A DNA stretch of 64,000 nucleotides, taken from the NCBI RefSeq assembly GCF_024832785.1, contig NZ_CP116615.1:3968001-4032000 (forward strand), read 5' to 3'. Shown piece by piece: positions 36,052 through 52,863 of the stretch. Position numbers and translations under genes: made by a program. The first letter of the stretch is position 1. Every line of letters begins with the position of its first letter. The DNA comes from Fontisphaera persica. Lineage in GTDB: Bacteria; Verrucomicrobiota; Verrucomicrobiia; Limisphaerales; Fontisphaeraceae. The notes under the pieces are model-generated. The model ran no database searches. It worked only from the letters and a program-made list of their open reading frames with translations, and had not been told where the DNA came from.

Positions 36052-36208
36052 TTATTAAAACGGTCTCCCGCCGCAGTGTCGAGGGCGCAGCGCAGTTTGT
36101 TTGGCCGGGAGAAGGGCAGGGCGCGTGGTCTCACGGCGGGGAGTGAGGGGGGGTGAATAGTTCTGGCTTTGATGGCGTCTTTGTCCTAGAATGTCGTGAC
36201 ACATAATT

Positions 36209-37123
36209 ATGAAAAAGTCCATCCTCTTGACCGCAGTGTTGGCGGTGGGCATTGCCTTGCCTGCTGCTGCCCAGGGCAAAAAAGTCCTCGTCGTCACCAC
36301 CACCACCGGTTTCCGGCACAGCTCGATTCCGGTGGCTGAGAAAATCATCGGCCAACTGGCCAAGGAAAGCGGCGCTTTCACTGTGGAATACGTGAGCCAG
36401 CCTCCCAACGAGCCGCGCGCGCCCAAGCGGCCCGGCAACAATGCCACCGAGGCCGAAAAAGAGAAATTCCAGCAGGAGCAGGCGGCATACGAGGCGGCGC
36501 GCAAGGCTTGGAATGAAGAGATGCGCAAGGTGTTGACCAAGCTCAGCCCGGCCAATCTGAAGAATTATGACGCGGTGATTTTTGCCAACACCACCGGCGA
36601 CCTGCCCATACCCGACCGCCAGGGATTTTTGGACTGGATTGCGGCGGGCGGCGGCTTTGTGGGGATGCACAGCGCCACGGACACCTTCCACGGTTTCCGG
36701 CCGTTCATTGAGATGATTGGCGGCGAATTTTTGTCGCACGGCGCGCAAGTCAGCGTGGACGCCAATGTGGAAGACCGCGAGTGCTCGGCCTGCCGGCATT
36801 TCAAGGCGGGGCAGTTCACGGTGTTTGATGAAATCTATCTGTTCAAGAGCTATGACCGTACCAAAGTGCACAATCTGCTTTCCTTGAACAACCATCCCAA
36901 TGACAAAACGCCGGGCTATTACCCGATTTCCTGGAACAAGACCTACGGCAAAGGGCGGGTGTTCTACACCTCGCTGGGGCATCGCGAAGACGTGTGGGAC
37001 CCGGAATGGAAGGACCGCAAGAATCCGCCTGAAGTGGCGCGAGATTACCAGAAGCACATTCTGGGCGGCATCAAGTGGGCGCTGGGTCTGGAAACTTGCG
37101 AACCCAAAACGCAACAGAAATAA
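36209..37123 (+). CDS. Secreted ThuA-domain protein
   Basis: A 304-residue protein with signal peptide (MKKSILLTAVLAVGIALPAAAQ). The ThuA-like fold is seen as KKVLVVTTTTGFRHSSIPVAEKIIGQLAKES at the start, FANTTGDLPIPDRQGFLDWIAAGGGFVGMHSATDTF in the centre and PISWNKTYGKGRVFYTSLGHREDVWDPEW near the end. ThuA proteins are glutamine-amidotransferase-like folds tied to disaccharide metabolism. In Verrucomicrobia they usually stand beside DUF1080 (3-keto-disaccharide hydrolase) genes, as here, 29 bp upstream. An insert with Pro/Lys/Glu-rich sequence (about 55-100) separates the first two core strands. Confidence 0.92.
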   Translation: MKKSILLTAVLAVGIALPAAAQGKKVLVVTTTTGFRHSSIPVAEKIIGQLAKESGAFTVEYVSQPPNEPRAPKRPGNNATEAEKEKFQQEQAAYEAARKAWNEEMRKVLTKLSPANLKNYDAVIFANTTGDLPIPDRQGFLDWIAAGGGFVGMHSATDTFHGFRPFIEMIGGEFLSHGAQVSVDANVEDRECSACRHFKAGQFTVFDEIYLFKSYDRTKVHNLLSLNNHPNDKTPGYYPISWNKTYGKGRVFYTSLGHREDVWDPEWKDRKNPPEVARDYQKHILGGIKWALGLETCEPKTQQK

Positions 37124-37152
37124 CCGCGCTGGCCGCCAAGCAAAGGCACATT

Positions 37153-37770
37153 ATGAAAACCATCTGGACCTTGATTTTAGGGCTGGCGCTTGCCGGCCAG
37201 GTTTGGGCTGCTGACAACGAACAGGGTTTCGTGCCGCTGTTTAACGGCAAGGACCTGAGCGGCTGGAAACTGCGCAATCCCAACGCCAAGAGCTATTGGA
37301 CGGTGGAAGATGGCATCCTCAAAAACACCATCAAACAAGGCGACCACGGGGTGGATTTGCTGACGGAAAAGAAGTTCTGGAACTTCACCGTGCGCTTCGA
37401 GTACCTCGTGCCTGACGGCTCCAACAGTGGTTTTTACCTCCGGGGCCGCCATGAGATACAAATCTTGGGTGATTACAAGAGCGGCAAACCGGCGCCGGGC
37501 GGCAATGGCGCCTTGTATGCGTTCAAAGCGCCGGATGTGTTTGCCAGCAAGCCCGGCAATGAATGGCAGACCTGTGAGGCCACCATCATCGGCAACAAAA
37601 TCACGGTGATCCTCAACGGCAAGAAGATCCACGACAATGTCGTGTGCGATCGTCCCACTGGCGGGGAGGTGGACAACAAGGTGAAGGAGCCGGGCCCCAT
37701 CCTCTTGCAGGGGGATCATGGCACCGTGTGGTTCCGCAACATTCGCATCAAGGAATTGCCGGCGGAATAA
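37153..37770 (+). CDS. Secreted DUF1080 (3-keto-disaccharide hydrolase-type) protein
   Basis: ATG 37153 gives a 205-residue protein with signal peptide (MKTIWTLILGLALAGQVWAAD). The DUF1080 hallmarks are FVPLFNGKDLSGWKLRN at the start, DGILKNTIKQGDHGVDLLTEKKFWNFTVRFEYLVPDGSNSGFYLRGRHEIQILGDY in the centre and GPILLQGDHGTVWFRNIRIKEL at the end. Members of this family cleave 3-keto-glycosides or bind glycans in the periplasm. It follows the ThuA gene in the same operon, and a strong terminator follows it. Confidence 0.93.
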   Translation: MKTIWTLILGLALAGQVWAADNEQGFVPLFNGKDLSGWKLRNPNAKSYWTVEDGILKNTIKQGDHGVDLLTEKKFWNFTVRFEYLVPDGSNSGFYLRGRHEIQILGDYKSGKPAPGGNGALYAFKAPDVFASKPGNEWQTCEATIIGNKITVILNGKKIHDNVVCDRPTGGEVDNKVKEPGPILLQGDHGTVWFRNIRIKELPAE

Positions 37771-37800
37771 CTCCTTCGCCCGCAATTAAACAAGCGCTGC

Positions 37801-37832
37801 GCCCGGCCCCTTGGGCCGGGCGTTGCCTTTTT
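37801..37832 (+). terminator. Rho-independent terminator after the ThuA-DUF1080 operon
   Basis: The stem GCCCGGCCC / GGGCCGGGC with a four-base loop is followed by GTTGCCTTTTT. It ends the plus-strand operon just at the 3' end of the convergent TPR gene. Confidence 0.85.
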
Positions 37833-40800
37833 CAGCGGCGCAAAGCGGTGTAGCATCGCCGCACCCAGCGCCGGCCGGCTGGGCTTGGAGGGTACACCAC
37901 CGCAAACGCCAGCGGCAGCACCGGCAACAAAAACCACCCCCAGCGGAATTGCCGCCACCAGCGCCACAGGCCCAAGCCGGGCCATTTTCCGCTCTGCCGC
38001 CAGCGGCGGATGGACTCCAGGTACAACTGTCTGACCGGCGCTGGATGCCAGAAGAAAATGCTGCCCAGCAGACCCTTGTCGAGCTTGCGCACCAGTGCGC
38101 GGGTGGCTGCCCAGGTGCCGGGCGTGCCCAGGGTGTCCAACTCCACCCAGATTTGCGCCAGCCCTTGCAGGCAGTGGACAGAGTCATCCAGGGGCTGTCC
38201 GTGAATTTGAGCCAGAAAATGGCGGGCATTCTCCAACTGCCCGTTCATGGCGCAAAGGCAGGCGGCCGCCGCGCAAAAGCAGATATGGGCCGCCTGGGAC
38301 TGGCGCATGGCCAGCGCCTTTTCCAGGCAGGTCTCGGCGGCTTGCCATTGACCCCCGGCCAGGAGGGCTTCCAGCCAGTCCGAGTACATGTCGGCGGGCA
38401 TTTCGCCTTGCTGGTGGAGGCTGGCAAACCACTCCCGGGCGGCCTGGTATTTGCCGATGTACAGCAAAGCCCGCCCGTATTTGGCGGCCAACCGCGCATC
38501 GGTGCGCAGCCATTGCTGATGTTGCTTCCCCAGCCGCTGCACCTGCCGGTGCAGGAGCCAGGGAAAAGGCAGGTCGTCATATTTCATCGCACGATGATAA
38601 GCATCGGCGGCCGATTTCAGGTATTGCGCGAGGCTGTTCTTGAAAAATGCGCTGTGCCGGGACACTCGGTCCAGATAGGCGGGCAAAGTGAAGCGCCCCT
38701 CCAGGAAACGCAGATGAATGTCCATCGCCCCCAAATACGCATGGCAGGGCGGGGATTCAACGGCAGCGGGCTGCGTCTCCAAAGGCTCCAGGGCCTGGCG
38801 TACCAGTTGCGTCACTGTGCTCACCGGCACCCGGTCAACCAGATTGTCCAGGGCGTTGAACATGGCCCATTCATCTTCGCCTTCCTTCATGCGGCAAAGC
38901 GCGGCAAAGCGGCCTTGGGCGGCATCTACCTCTCCCTGCAACAACAAGAGGCGAATCTCGAACGCCAGCAGCAGGTCCGAAATTCGGCGCGCGCGCTCCT
39001 GCTCCAGGAAGCGCCAGGCTTCGGTCCCGTCGCCGGTCTCCTCCGCCAGGCCAATCAGCAGCCCCATGAGGAGATGGCGGTTTTCCTCCTGGCTGGGGTT
39101 CAATTCAACGGCGCGCCGGAGGGTGGCGACTGCCGCGGACTTGTTGCCCTTGTGGTAATGCAGCTCGGCCAGCACCCGGAGCGGTTCGGCTTCATGGGGG
39201 GCCATCGCCACCATTTTTTCCGCCGTCGCCAGGGCCTGATCATATTGCCCCATTTCTTTCTGCCACGCGCACAACAGATTCAGGGCACCGTAGTGAGCCG
39301 GGGATTCGGCCAGCACGCTTTCCATGAGCTGGATGGCTGCGGGCAAATGGCCGCGCTGGCTCTCAATCCATGCCGCGCGCAGGCGCAAACGGAAGGGTGG
39401 CGGCTGCAGGGGACCTTCCAGACACACCGCCAGCGCTTCATCGCACCGGTCCAGCAAGGTCAGAAAACGGGCTTTTTCCTCGTGCGCTTTTTCCAGGCGG
39501 GGATTCAAGGCAATGGCCCGGTCCACCGCTTCCAGACAGCCCGCGCTCCCCTGTTGGGCCAGACAATCAGCCAGCATCAGCCACGCCTCGGGATCGCCCG
39601 GACGCGCTTGCGTCAGTGCTTCGGCCATTTCGACGGCCAGGCGGGGCATCTGTCTTTCCCGGGCCAGGTATTGAAGAATTTCCCAGGCCGTGCCACAGGC
39701 GGGGTCCATTTGCAGGGCTACCCGGGCTTCTTGAATTGCGGTTGAGTCATCATTTTCCCGCAGGGCGATTTCGGCCAGGGCCACATGCAGTGGCGCTTCC
39801 AACGGGGCATGGGCCAGGCCGCGCAACAATGTTTGCCGTGCTTTTTCCAGTTGGCCATTTTTGGCGTGCAAGTTGGCCAAAAAATAGACGGCCCGCCCAA
39901 AGCGGGGATTGATGGTCAACGCCTGTTCCACCGCGGCCACGGCCGCATCGCCACGGCCTTGGACGCGCAACACATCGGCTTGTTCCAGCCACAATTGCGG
40001 GACCAGCGGAAACCGTTGGCAGGCTTGTTGGGCCAGGGCCAGGGCCTCCTCCAACTGATGCATGTTTTTCAGTTGCAGGACCACCACCCACCACGCGGCC
40101 CACAGGTCCGGCCGGGCGGCCAGAGCTTCGCGCAGCCGGGCCAGCACTTTTTCGGGGGGCAACAAGCCATGGGCCGCATCGCGGAAAGCCGGCAGGGCTT
40201 CCTCAAAAACCACCTGCCGCACCAGCTCGGCTTGGATGAAATCCAGCGCCGCCGCGCGCTCCTCCTCGGTGGCTGAGAGCTCCACCAACTGCATCATGGC
40301 GTGGCCGTTGTTCACATCCAGCCGCAGGGCCTGCTCATAATCGGCGCGCGCCTCGGCCCGGCGGCCAAGCTGCCTTAAAATGTCACCCCGCACCGTGTAG
40401 ATTTTGGGGGAGCGGGGGGTGAGAGTAATGGCCCGCTCGGCTTCGGCCAGCGCCTCGGCGTGGCGGCCGGCGGCGGCATACCGCAGCGCCAGGTCGCATC
40501 GCGCCTCAGTGTCCACTGGGTTCGCCGCCAACAAGGCTTGCAGGGCTGGCTCGGCTACCGCGAGCGGTTCTTGCGCCATTTTTTCCGCGCGCAACCGCAG
40601 CAGGCCGCAGTGGCCGGGAAAGCGGCGGCACATTTCCTCGAGGTGCGCGCGGGCGGTGGCCAGGTCATGCGTTTCCGCCAGCAGTTGATACACCTGAGCC
40701 TGAGCGTCCATCGCCAGCGGCTCGACTTGCAGCACCTCCTGCCAGCAGGCCAGGGCCTGGCGCAAATCCGCGCGATAGACCGCCAGTTGCGCGGCGACGC

Positions 40801-43033
40801 GCAGCCAATGGCTGTGCCGCGCATGGCCGCGCGCCTGCTCCAGCAGTTGTTGCGCGGGCGCCGCCCGGCCATGCCGCGCGAGGGCATCGGCGTAAAACAG
40901 CATCAGTTCGCCATCCTCGGGGCGGCGGTTGCGGGCTTCTTCCAAAACGGCGAAACCTTCCTCGGTGCGCCCCAGGTAGGCCAGGCACTTGAACAGCGTC
41001 ATGGCCGGAACGGAGGATAAATGGCCCAGCTCGTCAAAGCGCCTCCGCAAAAACGCCAGCCCCGCCTCGCTTTGGCGCAGGTGGAGCAGCGAGGAAAAGT
41101 AGCTTTCGGCCAGGTGCTCGTTATGTTGCGCGGCGCAGGCGGCCAGCCGGTAATGCATGGCCGCTTCGGCCAGGCGGCCTGCTTTCCACAGCACATCCCC
41201 CAGAATGCCCAACAGGTCCGGGTCGGTGGGAGCGGTTTTCAGGGCGCGCTGCACAAGCCGCTGGGCGCGGGACAATTCGCGGTCGTCCTCCTTCAGGGCG
41301 GCGGCCAGCCGGGCCAGAAAAAAAGGTTCTTTGGGGTGAAGCGCCAGCAGGTGATCCAGAAACTCCAGGACTTCCTGGCGGGTGGCGGTGGCTTCCAGTA
41401 AATCCAGTTTGACGCGCAGCAACCGGGGATTTTTGGGGAATTGGGCCAGCCAACGCTCGACGTATTGCAGGCTGGCGGCGGGGTTTACATCGTACGCGCT
41501 TAAGGCCCAGCCGGCCGAGCAGGTAATCCAATGGTTCGGATGGCTTTGACTCAAGGCGGCAAGCGCCGCCGCTGCCTGGTCCCGTTGATGCTTCTCCAGG
41601 GCGCACTGCACGGCATGCAACTGGTCAAACAGGGCGGCGTCGGGAAGCTCCAGTCCCTCCAGACGATGAGCTTCCGTCGGTGGCAGCATGACCAGCCCGC
41701 GGGGGCCAAAAGGAGCATAACTTTGCTGGAATCTTGGCCAGATGGCTTCGGAAAGATAGTAATGATAGGGGTCGCGCAACAGAAGGGATTGGCGCAGTTC
41801 ATCGTAGCCCACCAACGCCTGCAAATGGCCGCTGTTGACTTCCACCGTGGTCAGCGCAAAAGGCACGCCCCGGTCAATTAGCGCCAGAGCCGCCTCCCAC
41901 GTCACGCTAAACTCCCGCGTGACCAGCCCCTGGCTTTCAGCCCAACGCCGCTGGCTGTGGGAAGGCGTGCCGTCGTAGCAAATTTGTTCCGCGATTTCCA
42001 GGTGGTTGATAGGCTGCTGCCAATACTGCGCCAGAGCCGCCAGGGTGGCCGGCGCGCAGGTTTTGTGATGCTGGCGGACAAAGTTCACCGCCAGACAACG
42101 CCGGCGCCGGGGCGGGTCTGGCAGGTCCAGGCGCCGGGCCAGCTCGCGATGCCAGACATCCCGGTGACGGCTTAGCTCCAAAACCCGCGCACAATGCTGC
42201 CGTGCTCCGTCCAGGTCCCCCGCCCGGCAGGCCAGAGTGGTGCGGCTGCGCGCCACCCAGTGATGCACGGAGCGGTCCGCCAGCGGCGCGACCTGCACAA
42301 AATGTTCCAGGGTGGCCAGGGCTTCAGCTTGCAACCCCAAATCCAGTTCCAGACAGGTGAGGGCCGCGGCAATGGGCGCGCATGCGGCACGTTGGACGGC
42401 GGCGCGTAAAAAAGCCAGGGCCTCCTCATCGCGGTCGAGCACCTGCAAGAAGTGAGCGGTGCTCAGGATGGCAGGGCGATACAAGGGGCTGGCTTCCACC
42501 GCGGCGCGGGCCAGGGCCAGCGCTTCTTCATACCGGTCCTGCCTTTCCAGAATACTGGCCTGGCATACCTTCCCCCAGGGAAGCTCCACGGCATACGCCT
42601 CCGCCCGGCGCATATAATCCGCGGCCGTTTCAAAATCCCGGAAATCCGCCTCCACCATGGCGCGCAAGGTCCAAAAGTAATGGCAGGTTTCCGCGTCCAC
42701 GGTTTCGCCGGGTTCTGGCATGGCCTGTAAAAATTGGCGGGCTTGCCAGCATCCCTGCTGCCGCGCGAGGTTGTGCGCATAAAACACCCCCGCGGACAAA
42801 TCTCGGGGATGTCGCTGGTAATTGCGCCGGTGCAGAACTTGGGACAGCCGTTCGCTGCCGAGCGAGGCCGCCAGGCGCCCGGCCCAGGTGCGTGACCGGC
42901 AGCCGGTCCAGGTCCACAAGGGTGGGTGTGCGCGCAAAAGCTCCCACAGCCGCAGCATCTGGCTTTGATGATACCAAGGCTCAATTTGCGCGATGAAAGC
43001 CTCCGACAATGTTTCTGCTTCGGGTCCCTGCAT
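37832..43033 (-). CDS. Giant TPR protein with an embedded C39-like (papain-fold) peptidase domain
   Basis: A 1733-residue protein. Residues about 1-305 are helical with TPR units (EEALALARAAVEASP, DEEALAFLRAAVQ). Residues 312-425 are a C39-type cysteine peptidase domain: oxyanion Gln Q321 and nucleophile C326 in FVRQHHKTCAPATLAALAQYW, His H403 in VNSGHLQALVGYDE and Asp D421 in LLLRDPYHYY. From about 440 to 1690 runs a long array of TPR repeats (for example RRAEARADYEQALRLDVNNGHAM, DAAVAAVEQALTINPRFGRA, SAAVATLRRAVELNP). The C-terminus has a single membrane helix (WGWFLLPVLPLAFAVVYP) and a basic end. No signal peptide is evident. The peptidase may cut a leader peptide or a protein held by the TPR arms; this is an inference. 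Confidence 0.88.
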   Translation of the reverse strand: MQGPEAETLSEAFIAQIEPWYHQSQMLRLWELLRAHPPLWTWTGCRSRTWAGRLAASLGSERLSQVLHRRNYQRHPRDLSAGVFYAHNLARQQGCWQARQFLQAMPEPGETVDAETCHYFWTLRAMVEADFRDFETAADYMRRAEAYAVELPWGKVCQASILERQDRYEEALALARAAVEASPLYRPAILSTAHFLQVLDRDEEALAFLRAAVQRAACAPIAAALTCLELDLGLQAEALATLEHFVQVAPLADRSVHHWVARSRTTLACRAGDLDGARQHCARVLELSRHRDVWHRELARRLDLPDPPRRRRCLAVNFVRQHHKTCAPATLAALAQYWQQPINHLEIAEQICYDGTPSHSQRRWAESQGLVTREFSVTWEAALALIDRGVPFALTTVEVNSGHLQALVGYDELRQSLLLRDPYHYYLSEAIWPRFQQSYAPFGPRGLVMLPPTEAHRLEGLELPDAALFDQLHAVQCALEKHQRDQAAAALAALSQSHPNHWITCSAGWALSAYDVNPAASLQYVERWLAQFPKNPRLLRVKLDLLEATATRQEVLEFLDHLLALHPKEPFFLARLAAALKEDDRELSRAQRLVQRALKTAPTDPDLLGILGDVLWKAGRLAEAAMHYRLAACAAQHNEHLAESYFSSLLHLRQSEAGLAFLRRRFDELGHLSSVPAMTLFKCLAYLGRTEEGFAVLEEARNRRPEDGELMLFYADALARHGRAAPAQQLLEQARGHARHSHWLRVAAQLAVYRADLRQALACWQEVLQVEPLAMDAQAQVYQLLAETHDLATARAHLEEMCRRFPGHCGLLRLRAEKMAQEPLAVAEPALQALLAANPVDTEARCDLALRYAAAGRHAEALAEAERAITLTPRSPKIYTVRGDILRQLGRRAEARADYEQALRLDVNNGHAMMQLVELSATEEERAAALDFIQAELVRQVVFEEALPAFRDAAHGLLPPEKVLARLREALAARPDLWAAWWVVVLQLKNMHQLEEALALAQQACQRFPLVPQLWLEQADVLRVQGRGDAAVAAVEQALTINPRFGRAVYFLANLHAKNGQLEKARQTLLRGLAHAPLEAPLHVALAEIALRENDDSTAIQEARVALQMDPACGTAWEILQYLARERQMPRLAVEMAEALTQARPGDPEAWLMLADCLAQQGSAGCLEAVDRAIALNPRLEKAHEEKARFLTLLDRCDEALAVCLEGPLQPPPFRLRLRAAWIESQRGHLPAAIQLMESVLAESPAHYGALNLLCAWQKEMGQYDQALATAEKMVAMAPHEAEPLRVLAELHYHKGNKSAAVATLRRAVELNPSQEENRHLLMGLLIGLAEETGDGTEAWRFLEQERARRISDLLLAFEIRLLLLQGEVDAAQGRFAALCRMKEGEDEWAMFNALDNLVDRVPVSTVTQLVRQALEPLETQPAAVESPPCHAYLGAMDIHLRFLEGRFTLPAYLDRVSRHSAFFKNSLAQYLKSAADAYHRAMKYDDLPFPWLLHRQVQRLGKQHQQWLRTDARLAAKYGRALLYIGKYQAAREWFASLHQQGEMPADMYSDWLEALLAGGQWQAAETCLEKALAMRQSQAAHICFCAAAACLCAMNGQLENARHFLAQIHGQPLDDSVHCLQGLAQIWVELDTLGTPGTWAATRALVRKLDKGLLGSIFFWHPAPVRQLYLESIRRWRQSGKWPGLGLWRWWRQFRWGWFLLPVLPLAFAVVYPPSPAGRRWVRRCYTALRR

Positions 43034-43350
43034 GATGCTTGGCGCTCCGCCATTCCCTGGGCCGTTGCCGGTCCATGCCGCGGCAACGGCATAACAGATA
43101 TTTGCTGCGGAGATGCCGGCTGGAGATGATGGAGGCAGCCTGGCCGAATCACAAGTTCTTAATCACCTCCCCTCAGCAAGGGCGTTTCCGCCAGGAAACA
43201 CCTCGCAAAAAATGCCTCGCAGGTATTGCTGGGCAGGAGGGGGCAATCCCTGCAGGCTGGCCCGGGCGGAAGCATTCCTTGCCGGACGGGGCAACCCAGC
43301 GCACTTTTAGCTTCTGAAGCTGCCGCGCTCCGGCTTTACTGAAAGGACCT
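43034..43350. other. Divergent intergenic gap without recognised gene
   Basis: These 317 bp separate the divergent TPR and Mrp genes and must hold both promoters. I found no convincing promoter hexamers and no coding frame. Just before the Mrp start the sequence GAAAGGACCTATG gives a good ribosome-binding site. Confidence 0.5.
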
Positions 43351-44412
43351 ATGTTGACGCAAGATGACGTACTCAAGGCGCTGAAAGCGGTGAAGTATCC
43401 CGGCTATTCGCGGGACATCGTCTCATTCGGGCTGGTCAAGCAAGTGCAGGTGGCCGCCGAAGCAGTAGCCGTGCACTTGGAGCTGACTTCGGCCCGCCCG
43501 GAAGTAGCGGCCCAGCTCAAGGTGGAGTGTGAGCGCGTCTTGCAGCAACTGCCCGGCATCCGCACCGCGGCGGTGGATGTGCGCATGACCGGCGGAGGCG
43601 GGGCGGGGGCGCCGCCGAATCCCTGGGCGGGGCAGGCGCGCGTGCCGGGGATTGAGCGCATTGTGGCCGTGGCCAGCGGCAAGGGCGGCGTGGGCAAGTC
43701 CACCTGCTCGGCCAATCTGGCCTGTGCGCTGCAACGCGAGGGGTTGCGCGTGGGCTTGCTGGACTGCGACATTTACGGTCCCACGATTCCGTTGATGATG
43801 GGCACCCGCCAGCGGCCCACCATTACGCCCGATGAAAAACTGCTGCCGCCCTGCGCGCACGGGGTGAAATTGATGTCCATCGGATTTTTATTGGAGGATG
43901 ACCAGCCGGTCATCTGGCGCGGGCCGATGATTGTCAAAACCATCCAGCAATTTTTGGTGCAGGTGGAGTGGGGCACGCTGGATTATTTGATTGTGGATTT
44001 GCCTCCCGGCACCGGCGATGCCCAGCTTACGCTTTGCCAAACCGTGCCGCTCGACGGCGGCGTGGTGGTGACCACCCCGCAGGAGGCCTCGCTGGGAGTG
44101 GTGCGCAAAGGTATTGCCATGTTTGAAAAGGTTAACGTGCCTGTCCTGGGCCTCATCGAAAACATGAGTTATTTCACCACGCCAGACGGGCAGCGCCTGG
44201 AAATCTTTGGCCACGGCGGCGGACGCCACGAAGCCGCCCGCAAAGGCCTGCCCTTCCTGGGAGAAATCCCCATCTTCGTGGAAATCCGCGAGGGCGGGGA
44301 CCAGGGAGTGCCCGTGGTGGTGGGACGGCCCGACAGTGCGGCGGCGGCAGCCTTTCGGGCGGTGGCCCGGGCCATGCGCGCGCAGGTGGAGCAACCGCGG
44401 CAGGCTGGTTAA
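43351..44412 (+). CDS. Mrp/ApbC/NBP35-type iron-sulfur cluster carrier ATPase
   Basis: A 353-residue P-loop protein. Residues 1-85 are a MIP18/DUF59 domain (VLKALKAVKYPGYSRDIVSFGLVKQVQ). The ATPase follows with deviant Walker A ASGKGGVGKSTCSANLACAL, VGLLDCDIYGPTIPLMMG, DYLIVDLPPGTGDAQLTLCQ and TTPQEASLGVVRKGIAMFEKVNVPVLGLIENMSYF. Mrp proteins carry and hand over [4Fe-4S] clusters to target enzymes. The usual C-terminal CxxC after ENMSYF is absent (TTPDGQRLEIFGHGGG), as in several bacterial Mrp proteins. It is preceded by AAAGGA seven bases before the ATG. Confidence 0.94.
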   Translation: MLTQDDVLKALKAVKYPGYSRDIVSFGLVKQVQVAAEAVAVHLELTSARPEVAAQLKVECERVLQQLPGIRTAAVDVRMTGGGGAGAPPNPWAGQARVPGIERIVAVASGKGGVGKSTCSANLACALQREGLRVGLLDCDIYGPTIPLMMGTRQRPTITPDEKLLPPCAHGVKLMSIGFLLEDDQPVIWRGPMIVKTIQQFLVQVEWGTLDYLIVDLPPGTGDAQLTLCQTVPLDGGVVVTTPQEASLGVVRKGIAMFEKVNVPVLGLIENMSYFTTPDGQRLEIFGHGGGRHEAARKGLPFLGEIPIFVEIREGGDQGVPVVVGRPDSAAAAAFRAVARAMRAQVEQPRQAG

Positions 44413-52299: not shown

Positions 52300-52863
52300 T
52301 TAGGCCTTGCGGCGGCGCAGATACAGCAAACCGCCCAGCCCGGCCAGACCCAACAGAATGGTCGAAGGCTCAGGCACCACAATCAGCCGGTGAGAGGTCA
52401 ACCCCACCAGAGCAGCCGGAGCATTCGGCGGGCCAGTCACGGTCACGCGCACCACAGGGTTTTGGGCAGCGGCAATCGGGCTGGCAACGCCTTGGGCATT
52501 ATAAGCCGCCTGCCACGTGGTGCCATCAGAGGCGCGCCAAGCACGGATTTGGAACAATGCTTCCTGCCCAGGAGCCACCCCCGGTACGGAAACTACGGTA
52601 GTAGGCAGGTAGCCCGCTGCAGCTCCCGTACGGAATGCAATAGCCAATCCCAAACTTGTGAAAGTAGAGGGGTCAGAGCCAACCGGACCATAATACAGGT
52701 CCGCCAAATAGGCGGAACCAGCAAGCTTGGTCGTCCCATCAACGTCAAAAATCGGGGCATCAATGCCATTGGCAATGTCCCGGTTGATAAACGTCAACTG
52801 CCCTTGGGCCCATACGCTAACACACGTCAGTGCCACCATTCCCATTACGATTAGCTTTTTCAT
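52300..52863 (-). CDS. PEP-CTERM sorted secreted protein
   Basis: A 187-residue protein. Residues 1-20 are a signal peptide (MKKLIVMGMVALTCVSVWAQ). The mature part is a small beta-rich domain (GQLTFINRDIANGIDAPIFDVDG, YLADLYYGPVGSD, LFQIRAWRASDGTTWQAAYNAQG). The C-terminus is VPEPSTILLGLAGLGGLLYLRRRKA: the PEP motif, a hydrophobic helix and an Arg-rich end, which together are the substrate tag of an exosortase. No exosortase gene is in the window. It lies 40 bp downstream of a secreted two-repeat protein. Both are probably surface proteins of the extracellular matrix. Confidence 0.93.
   Translation of the reverse strand: MKKLIVMGMVALTCVSVWAQGQLTFINRDIANGIDAPIFDVDGTTKLAGSAYLADLYYGPVGSDPSTFTSLGLAIAFRTGAAAGYLPTTVVSVPGVAPGQEALFQIRAWRASDGTTWQAAYNAQGVASPIAAAQNPVVRVTVTGPPNAPAALVGLTSHRLIVVPEPSTILLGLAGLGGLLYLRRRKA

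Follow-up and report, generated by a model that had tools for sequence, protein, structure and literature searches.

The window, a stretch of 64,000 nucleotides of Fontisphaera persica DNA, encodes a 1733-residue protein (ATG start) in which a confidently predicted papain-fold, C39-like domain with conserved catalytic residues is set between two TPR arms. With a little better than even confidence, we favor the reading that this is a soluble, self-contained, accessory cysteine peptidase guided by its TPRs. Judged by sequence, it belongs to a family of giant cysteine peptidases that is widespread in bacteria and conserved in size, and whose genetic unit is apparently one gene. The positions of its features are collected in Table 1.

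Table 1. Features of the gene and its product, in window coordinates
Feature	Position	Strand	Basis
Whole ORF, 1733 aa, TPR - C39-like - TPR protein	37832..43033	-	ORF and full-length homologues
TPR arm at the N terminus (residues 1-305), without visible signal peptide	42119..43033	-	AlphaFold helix pairs; low N-terminal hydropathy
C39-like (PF13529) papain-fold domain, residues 310-460	41654..42106	-	Pfam E 3e-12; model; ComA 3k8u match
Q321, presumed oxyanion-hole glutamine	42071..42073	-	94/94 homologues
C326, presumed nucleophile	42056..42058	-	94/94; aligns with ComA C17
H403, presumed general base	41825..41827	-	94/94; the search pattern selects for this column in 77 rows and leaves it free in 17
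D421, presumed third triad residue (D or E)	41771..41773	-	D in 89, E in 5 of 94; aligns with ComA D112
Long C-terminal TPR superhelix, residues ~461-1360	38954..41653	-	Pfam TPR matches; modelled up to residue 1190
Poorly conserved C-terminal region, residues ~1361-1733	37835..38953	-	1334-1733 without Pfam match; low conservation
Hydrophobic stretch of borderline strength (residues 1698-1714), a possible tail anchor	37892..37942	-	Hydropathy 1.78
Segment absent from same-genus genome G001: gene plus ~265 bp upstream	37832..43298	.	Flank alignment to L146

Homologues, layout and predicted structure

We assembled an alignment of 94 rows from the window protein, 16 members of the same class, and 77 further relatives, these being the best 80 of 142 less three duplicates of same-class loci. 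Four ORFs among the 80 relatives (L050, L076, L082 and L114) stop early, short of the locus end; they were kept in the alignment and left out of the set of 81 complete homologues, which comprises the window protein and 80 others. Full-length homologues occur in at least five phyla. Leaving aside the window protein, 72 of the 80 complete ones have lengths of 1,600-1,800 residues, counted from the window protein's first residue. The same-class scan matched 35 of 384 genomes at E 1e-3, 17 of them with E values no higher than 1e-42; the remaining 18 matches, shorter or TPR-only, were not counted. Because the wide genome scans scored four candidates per genome, both this count (at least 17/384) and that of the second scan (at least 9/387 at E 1e-30) are lower bounds. 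Phyla interleave in a quick tree made without bootstrap, which hints at transfer. The layout was new to the author of a first-pass annotation of this DNA, and no description of it was found in the literature that we searched, which covers few subscription papers.

Pfam matched many TPRs in the protein on both sides of the C39-like domain, and the AlphaFold model placed them there as well, just as the first-pass annotation had proposed. The long TPR stretch that it saw after the domain is present, with about 900 residues, but Pfam recognizes it only to about residue 1360 and not to the end of the protein. Residues 1334-1733, searched alone, matched no Pfam family at E 0.01, and per-column conservation across the C-terminal region of the 94-homologue alignment runs at about 0.17-0.37 up to residue 1700.

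Structure prediction gave a confident papain-like domain inside a TPR superhelix: the AlphaFold2 models of the domain and of residues 1-1190 each had a pLDDT of 93.8 and a pTM of 0.90. Among the top matches of the domain model were the pseudomurein endoisopeptidase PeiR (8z4n, Z 15.9), ComA (3k8u, Z 15.8, with 132 residues superposed at an rmsd of 2.2), PCAT (6mpz, Z 15.7), and mature staphopains (Z 14.7-14.9). The 1190-residue model retrieved other TPR proteins together with ComA, and from a viral structure library mostly TPR and Sel1-type repeat proteins. A single-sequence search of the PDB with residues 262-478 gave one chance-level match (E 0.15), and a profile search did better.

Not every papain-fold enzyme is a peptidase: the fold is shared by transferases and others, among them phytochelatin synthase Alr0975, which the domain model matches at Z 13.9. 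We consider it unlikely that the protein is a non-proteolytic papain-fold enzyme (an isopeptidase, amidase, transglutaminase-like enzyme or peptidyl transferase) whose TPRs hold the protein to be modified. The matches to phytochelatin synthase and to the endoisopeptidase speak for this, as does a triad that does not fix the type of reaction, whereas most of the structural matches listed are named peptidases or peptidase domains and PF13529 is itself named for peptidases.

The first-pass annotation had further described a C-terminal membrane helix and, from it, a membrane-tethered platform. A hydrophobic segment is indeed present near the C terminus, but it is borderline (best 17-residue mean hydropathy 1.78, under the threshold of 1.9) and no feature of the family. 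The hydropathy test was passed by 19 of the 81 complete homologues, 11 of which come from the window's own class set, where 11 of the 16 other members exceed 1.9. At the N terminus the best 17-residue mean is 0.33, with no hydrophobic stretch by hydropathy. Since the helix is a borderline case in this protein and only 19/81 homologues pass the test, the common form of the family looks soluble and probably cytosolic, and we rejected the platform as a general property.

Active site and peptidase family

Q321, C326, and H403 are invariant in all 94 homologues, with the qualification that the H403, Q405, A406, G409, and D411 columns were selected for in 77 of the rows because the pattern used to find relatives spanned them; Q321, C326, and D421 lay outside the pattern. 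The position of D421 holds D in 89 homologues and E in five. All 17 members from the same class likewise keep Q, C, and H, and the fourth position is D in 13 and E in four. In an alignment of the domain profile with Streptococcus ComA, the Cys falls on C17, the His on a His, and the Asp on D112, the catalytic residues of that protein. All four residues named by the first-pass annotation are in place, and the loss of Cys or His among homologues that would have refuted it was not seen. The C39-like region is the most conserved part of the protein across the 94 homologues. That conservation, along with the invariant Q, C, and H, makes it barely credible that the protein is a scaffold with a relic active site in which the TPR superhelix alone matters, even though most of its length is TPR.

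The family that fits is PF13529 (Peptidase_C39_2). It matches residues 315-423 of the whole protein at E 3.3e-12, with 47.6 bits where the cut-off is 24, and the isolated domain at 53.2 bits; all 81 complete homologues match at E 0.01, and the catalytic Cys and His, and D or E at the third position, are kept in 94/94. Membership in the bacteriocin-leader family, to which the first-pass annotation had assigned the domain, did not hold up: PF03412 (Peptidase_C39) scores 16.9 bits in the window protein's domain, under its cut-off of 22, and matches 8 of 81 homologous domains at E 0.01. A double-glycine leader peptidase working with an unlinked exporter is therefore a very unlikely identity, although the peptidase domains of ComA and PCAT are among the best structural matches. 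The protein's own genome contains no PF03412 match, two of five other carrier genomes lack one as well (three have it), and the flanking ORFs show no recurring ABC exporter or precursor gene, in line with what had been noted for this DNA.

Distribution, neighborhood and rates of evolution

The gene is patchy within genera, present in one of two genomes in the window's genus, 4 of 18 from the Pseudomonas otitidis group, and 6 of 27 around Myxococcus. Eight Pseudomonas genomes keep the flanks and lack the gene alone. The sister species (G001) shows the same over a shorter stretch: positions 36154-37831 and 43299-44405 of the window align to 12305-10635 and 10526-9420 of its locus L146, and about 110 unmatched bases stand where the window has the gene and some 265 bp upstream. 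Presence or absence of a single gene was thus seen at two loci, of which the one in pseudomonads is apparently old and fixed.

All-against-all clustering of flanking ORFs at 17 and 80 loci found no neighbor kept across the family, and we rejected an operon or partner gene. The largest cluster covers 6 of 80 loci, at varying distances, and is a gene type common to several Planctomycetota and Verrucomicrobiota; the next largest cover four loci each, largely from near relatives. Neighbors were called by a longest-ORF rule that missed the homologue itself at 6 of 80 loci, and because of this rule the calls include some spurious ORFs on the antisense strand, which betray themselves by dN/dS above 1.

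We compared substitution rates in eight usable pairs, some of which share a species. dN was lowest in the C39-like region in seven and highest in the C-terminal region in all eight. Between P. otitidis and P. alcaligenes, dN/dS for the gene was 0.55, compared with 0.13-0.46 in seven neighboring ORF pairs (three further pairs at that locus, with ratios above 1, were taken as antisense), and windows in the distal arm reached 0.96. In the Myxococcus and L121/L123 pairs the gene's ratios were 0.34 and 0.16, not above all neighbors.

Such a pattern could suggest a partner-free protease of immunity, stress or conflict, a previously undescribed class encoded by a one-gene accessory locus in at least five phyla. 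The TPR arms would respond to stress or to a protein of an invader and thereby free the C39-like site, which would then cut a host protein or a foreign or stress-altered one, much as TPR-CHAT does in Craspase, although without RNA guide or partners. The patchiness, the one-gene presence and absence, the lack of a conserved partner, and the raised ratio in the P. otitidis/P. alcaligenes pair all point this way. We nevertheless think it rather unlikely, given that the ratios in the other two pairs are unremarkable beside their neighbors and the pseudomonad locus looks old and fixed. PADLOC did not match the protein, and there is no sign of a defense island because no PADLOC model matched more than two of the 150 (of 156) nearest flanking ORFs searched, trimmed to 400 residues. 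Nothing recurred in the PADLOC families listed for flanking ORFs (25 of 37, and 25 of 122 for Pfam), and we rejected such an island. Mobile carriage was rejected too, residues 1-480 having no match in plasmid and phage records at E 1e-5.

Proposed mechanism and comparison with known systems

Under the reading that we favor, a TPR-guided peptidase, the arms would hold a substrate and the peptidase would cleave it, which is consistent with the 1190-residue model, the constrained core, and the faster-evolving outer parts. C326 would act as nucleophile and H403 as base, with D421 (or E) orienting the histidine and Q321 forming the oxyanion hole. The C39-like domain would be fixed in the wall of the long superhelix, which may bind a particular protein and place a stretch of that protein before the active site, so giving the cut its specificity. 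Lacking a visible signal peptide, the enzyme would work in the cytosol, and in some members, chiefly those of the window's class, the C-terminal helix may anchor it in the inner membrane. No partner encoded nearby would be required. The function would be dispensable: purifying selection would keep the gene, yet it is cleanly lost or gained between close relatives. The family should be easy to test, because it offers one gene, one active-site residue, and natural relatives with an empty site.

TPR superhelices also act as assembly scaffolds with no role in substrate presentation. The pair L061/L063 also runs against the favored reading, since there the catalytic domain is under less constraint than the long TPR part.

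Among known systems, FapD, from the fap amyloid operon of Pseudomonas, resembles the protein in being a C39-like protease outside any ABC transporter; it differs in being operon-encoded, and the cited passages make no mention of TPR arms and report signal peptides in 104 of 108 Fap proteins (PMC3684753). The PA2778-family cysteine peptidases (NF033920) share a C39-like domain followed by TPR but are about 320-340 aa long, apparently carry a signal peptide, and lack a TPR arm at the N terminus. Against that model the window protein scored 68.5 bits at full length and 20.2 for residues 1-480, under the cut-off of 150, while three same-class positive controls exceeded it (L021 and L023, 183; L026, 168).

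For the AvrRpt2-like C70 peptidases (PF12385), the isolated domain lies above the cut-off (21.4 bits against 19), 58 of 81 homologous domains match at E 0.01, and the AvrRpt2 structure 6hqz is among the Foldseek matches. However, the whole protein falls under that cut-off (16.7), PF13529 scores far higher, and TPR arms stand on both sides. The C39 domains of ABC exporters (ComA, PCAT1) share the fold and the order of active-site residues; unlike them, the window protein has no transporter domain among the Pfam matches listed (25 of 32), its peptidase is embedded in TPRs, and it is under the PF03412 cut-off.

Separase, in eukaryotes, joins a helical-repeat arm to a cysteine protease, and the proteases of separase and TPR-CHAT are caspase-like and work with partners, TPR-CHAT being encoded beside cas7-11. 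The same kind of joining is described, in the cited passages, for TPR-CHAT (Csx29) of the type III-E CRISPR Craspase (PMC9729208, PMC9935389, PMC10028731). The protease of the window protein differs from both in being papain-like, with no CHAT (caspase-like) domain by fold or PADLOC match, in lying inside the repeats, and in having no recurring partner gene. By layout only, the family is a bacterial counterpart to helical-repeat proteases such as these, and it would be a natural modular protease if its arms choose the substrate.

Domain, active site, and predicted fold

Our preferred reading, held with modest confidence, is that the window protein is a TPR-guided cytosolic cysteine peptidase. 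The genome of the window is a single 4.73-Mb contig, and the protein combines many TPR units with one PF13529 (Peptidase_C39_2) domain at residues 315 to 423 (Pfam, E = 3.3e-12).

Features discussed in this part, in window coordinates
Feature	Positions	Strand	Basis
TPR/C39-like ORF, 1733 residues	37832-43033	minus	ORF translation
ThuA-like and 3-keto-disaccharide hydrolase ORFs, mutually overlapping	36209-37767	plus	
187-aa protein with a C-terminal PEP-CTERM sorting signal	52303-52863	minus	

The four presumed active-site residues singled out by the first-pass annotation (Q321, C326, H403, and D421) are all there. The first three are invariant in the 17 same-class members, of which 13 carry D and 4 carry E at the D421 position. 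They are also without variation in 94 of 94 nonduplicate homologues (D421 being D in 89 and E in 5), although the pattern used in the wide scan required residues at and around H403, so that this column is preselected in 77 rows; the pattern placed no such demand on the Cys, Gln, or Asp column. The Cys/His pair, on whose conservation the peptidase assignment had been staked, is thus kept throughout. Across the 94 homologues, conservation peaks in the C39-like stretch: the three 50-residue blocks that cover it average 0.61 to 0.67 per column, and no other block exceeds 0.55.

The earlier assignment to the bacteriocin-leader C39 family did not survive. The window domain alone scored 16.9 against PF03412 (cut-off 22) but 53.2 against PF13529, which makes the exporter family a wrong name for it; PF12385 (AvrRpt2-like C70) scored 21.4 (cut-off 19). 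Among 81 domain sequences at E 0.01, PF13529 matched all 81, PF12385 58, and PF03412 8. The domain's Cys, His, and Asp do align with those of ComA in a sequence profile, at weak significance (E 0.0064). A leader peptidase of the C39 exporter kind is unlikely, because PF03412 is without any match in the genome and nothing suitable recurs among nearby genes.

Modeled alone from 81 sequences, the C39-like domain is predicted with a pLDDT of 93.8 and a pTM of 0.90. Counting structural matches within 1 Z of each other as tied, we found that the model best resembles the PeiR pseudomurein endoisopeptidase (Z 15.9, rmsd 2.3, 138 residues), the peptidase domain of ComA (Z 15.8, rmsd 2.2, 132 residues), an AMS/PCAT transporter double-glycine protease in complex with a leader peptide (Z 15.7, rmsd 2.3, 132 residues), staphopains in their mature form (Z 14.7 to 14.9, rmsd 2.7 to 3.6, 138 to 143 residues), and the phytochelatin synthase Alr0975 (Z 13.9, rmsd 2.8, 144 residues). 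A papain-fold enzyme that is not proteolytic is a serious rival to the peptidase reading, if an improbable one. Residues 1 to 1190 were also predicted in one model (56 sequences; pLDDT 93.8, pTM 0.90), and since helix pairs precede and follow the domain there, the enzyme probably sits within one unbroken superhelix instead of hanging from a flexible linker.

Distribution and genomic surroundings

Of 384 same-class genomes, 35 had any match at E 1e-3, and at least 17, the window's included, matched at 1e-42 or better, with open frames of 1,691 to 2,394 aa. A profile scan with the alignment of residues 1 to 480 against genome_contigs (84,980 species genomes) detected 142 relatives; by submitters' titles, the best 80 of these, which we examined, come from Planctomycetota, Verrucomicrobiota, Acidobacteriota, Myxococcota, and Pseudomonadota, with one record each from Gemmatimonadota and Nitrospira. 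One homologue (L072) lies in a MAG titled Bordetella parapertussis, a title that may be a misassignment. Counted from the position of the window protein's first residue, 72 of the 80 other complete homologues span 1,600 to 1,800 residues (median, 1,671) and the remaining 8 are longer. The 2394-aa L036 homologue (G026 C307) has several additional hydrophobic stretches at its C terminus, and its last 690 aa matched no Pfam family at E 0.01. Four homologue ORFs (L050, L076, L082, and L114) end early, at 538 to 980 aa, inside their loci, and may be pseudogenes, frameshifts, or assembly errors.

Clustering of flanking ORFs yielded no neighbor common to more than 2 of 17 loci, the largest cluster reached 6 of 80 loci in the wider set, and no Pfam family occurred more than three times among the matches listed for the 150 nearest flanking ORFs. 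A same-genus genome, G001, is without the gene and keeps flanks of 1.7 and 1.1 kb side by side (85% and 81% DNA identity), with about 110 unmatched bases in place of the window's gene plus about 265 bp; this collinear block is short (2.8 kb), and the rest of the 19.5 kb of G001 sequence compared does not align. The hydrolase pair, convergent with the TPR/C39-like gene and just past its 3' end, is retained in G001. The gene's G+C (0.643; third positions, 0.747) matches its surroundings, and composition therefore gives no mark of recent arrival.

In the Pseudomonas otitidis genus-level group, 4 of 18 genomes carry the gene, all at one locus, adjoining a gene that we take to be yejK-like. In each of the 8 gene-less genomes examined (of 14), the blocks flanking carrier locus L134 (~2.3 and ~2.6 kb) are collinear and lie 92 to 113 bp apart, versus ~5.2 kb in the carrier, with other, smaller differences elsewhere in the locus. 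Because the same neighbor stays beside the gene in more distant species (L112, L113, L121, L123, and L125), these results suggest that the pseudomonad gene is an old resident, lost repeatedly. Around Myxococcus, 6 of 27 genomes hold a full homologue (E < 1e-200), and weaker matches cover the TPR part only.

Selection and cellular location

Whole-gene dN/dS was 0.07 to 0.55 in eight usable species pairs, some with a species in common (a ninth, saturated, was left out); these are simple pairwise counts whose values do not amount to positive selection. The lowest dN fell in the C39-like region in 7 of 8 pairs, and the highest in the C-terminal region in all 8. Between P. otitidis and P. alcaligenes the gene reached 0.55 (distal-arm windows, up to 0.96), and seven neighboring ORF pairs gave 0.13 to 0.46, three further pairs with ratios above 1 being taken as antisense. 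In the Myxococcus (0.34) and L121/L123 (0.16) pairs the gene was not distinct from its neighbors. An immune or stress protease, which would share the peptidase mechanism and add a named role, is a serious rival that we regard as doubtful.

A simple hydropathy scan found no strong N-terminal hydrophobic signal in any of the 81 complete homologues, the window protein among them; the 17-residue mean peaks at 1.74 in L087 and is 0.33 in the window protein. The membrane tether proposed in the first-pass annotation holds in part: a C-terminal hydrophobic segment exceeds the threshold in 19 of the 81, including 11 of 17 same-class members, and the window protein's own is borderline (1.78), so the tether is a trait of some lineages and not of the whole family. 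Right after the C-terminal helix, a Cys placed shortly behind a basic residue, often as R-x-C, recurs in many of these proteins: it occurs in L034, L037, L039 to L044, L046, L055, and L069, and also in L085, though its helix is under threshold.

Comparison with known systems

The fold and the repeat are individually known. For the TPR/C39-like combination, with its near-constant size across phyla and one-gene genetics, we found no description in the literature searched, which included PMC3482391, PMC3684753, PMC9729208, PMC9935389, and PMC10028731. PA2778-type proteins (NF033920) also combine a C39-like domain with TPR, as the window protein does. However, whereas their same-class examples (L021, L023, and L026) pass the NF033920 cut-off and are short, with an apparent N-terminal signal peptide, the window protein scores far under that cut-off.
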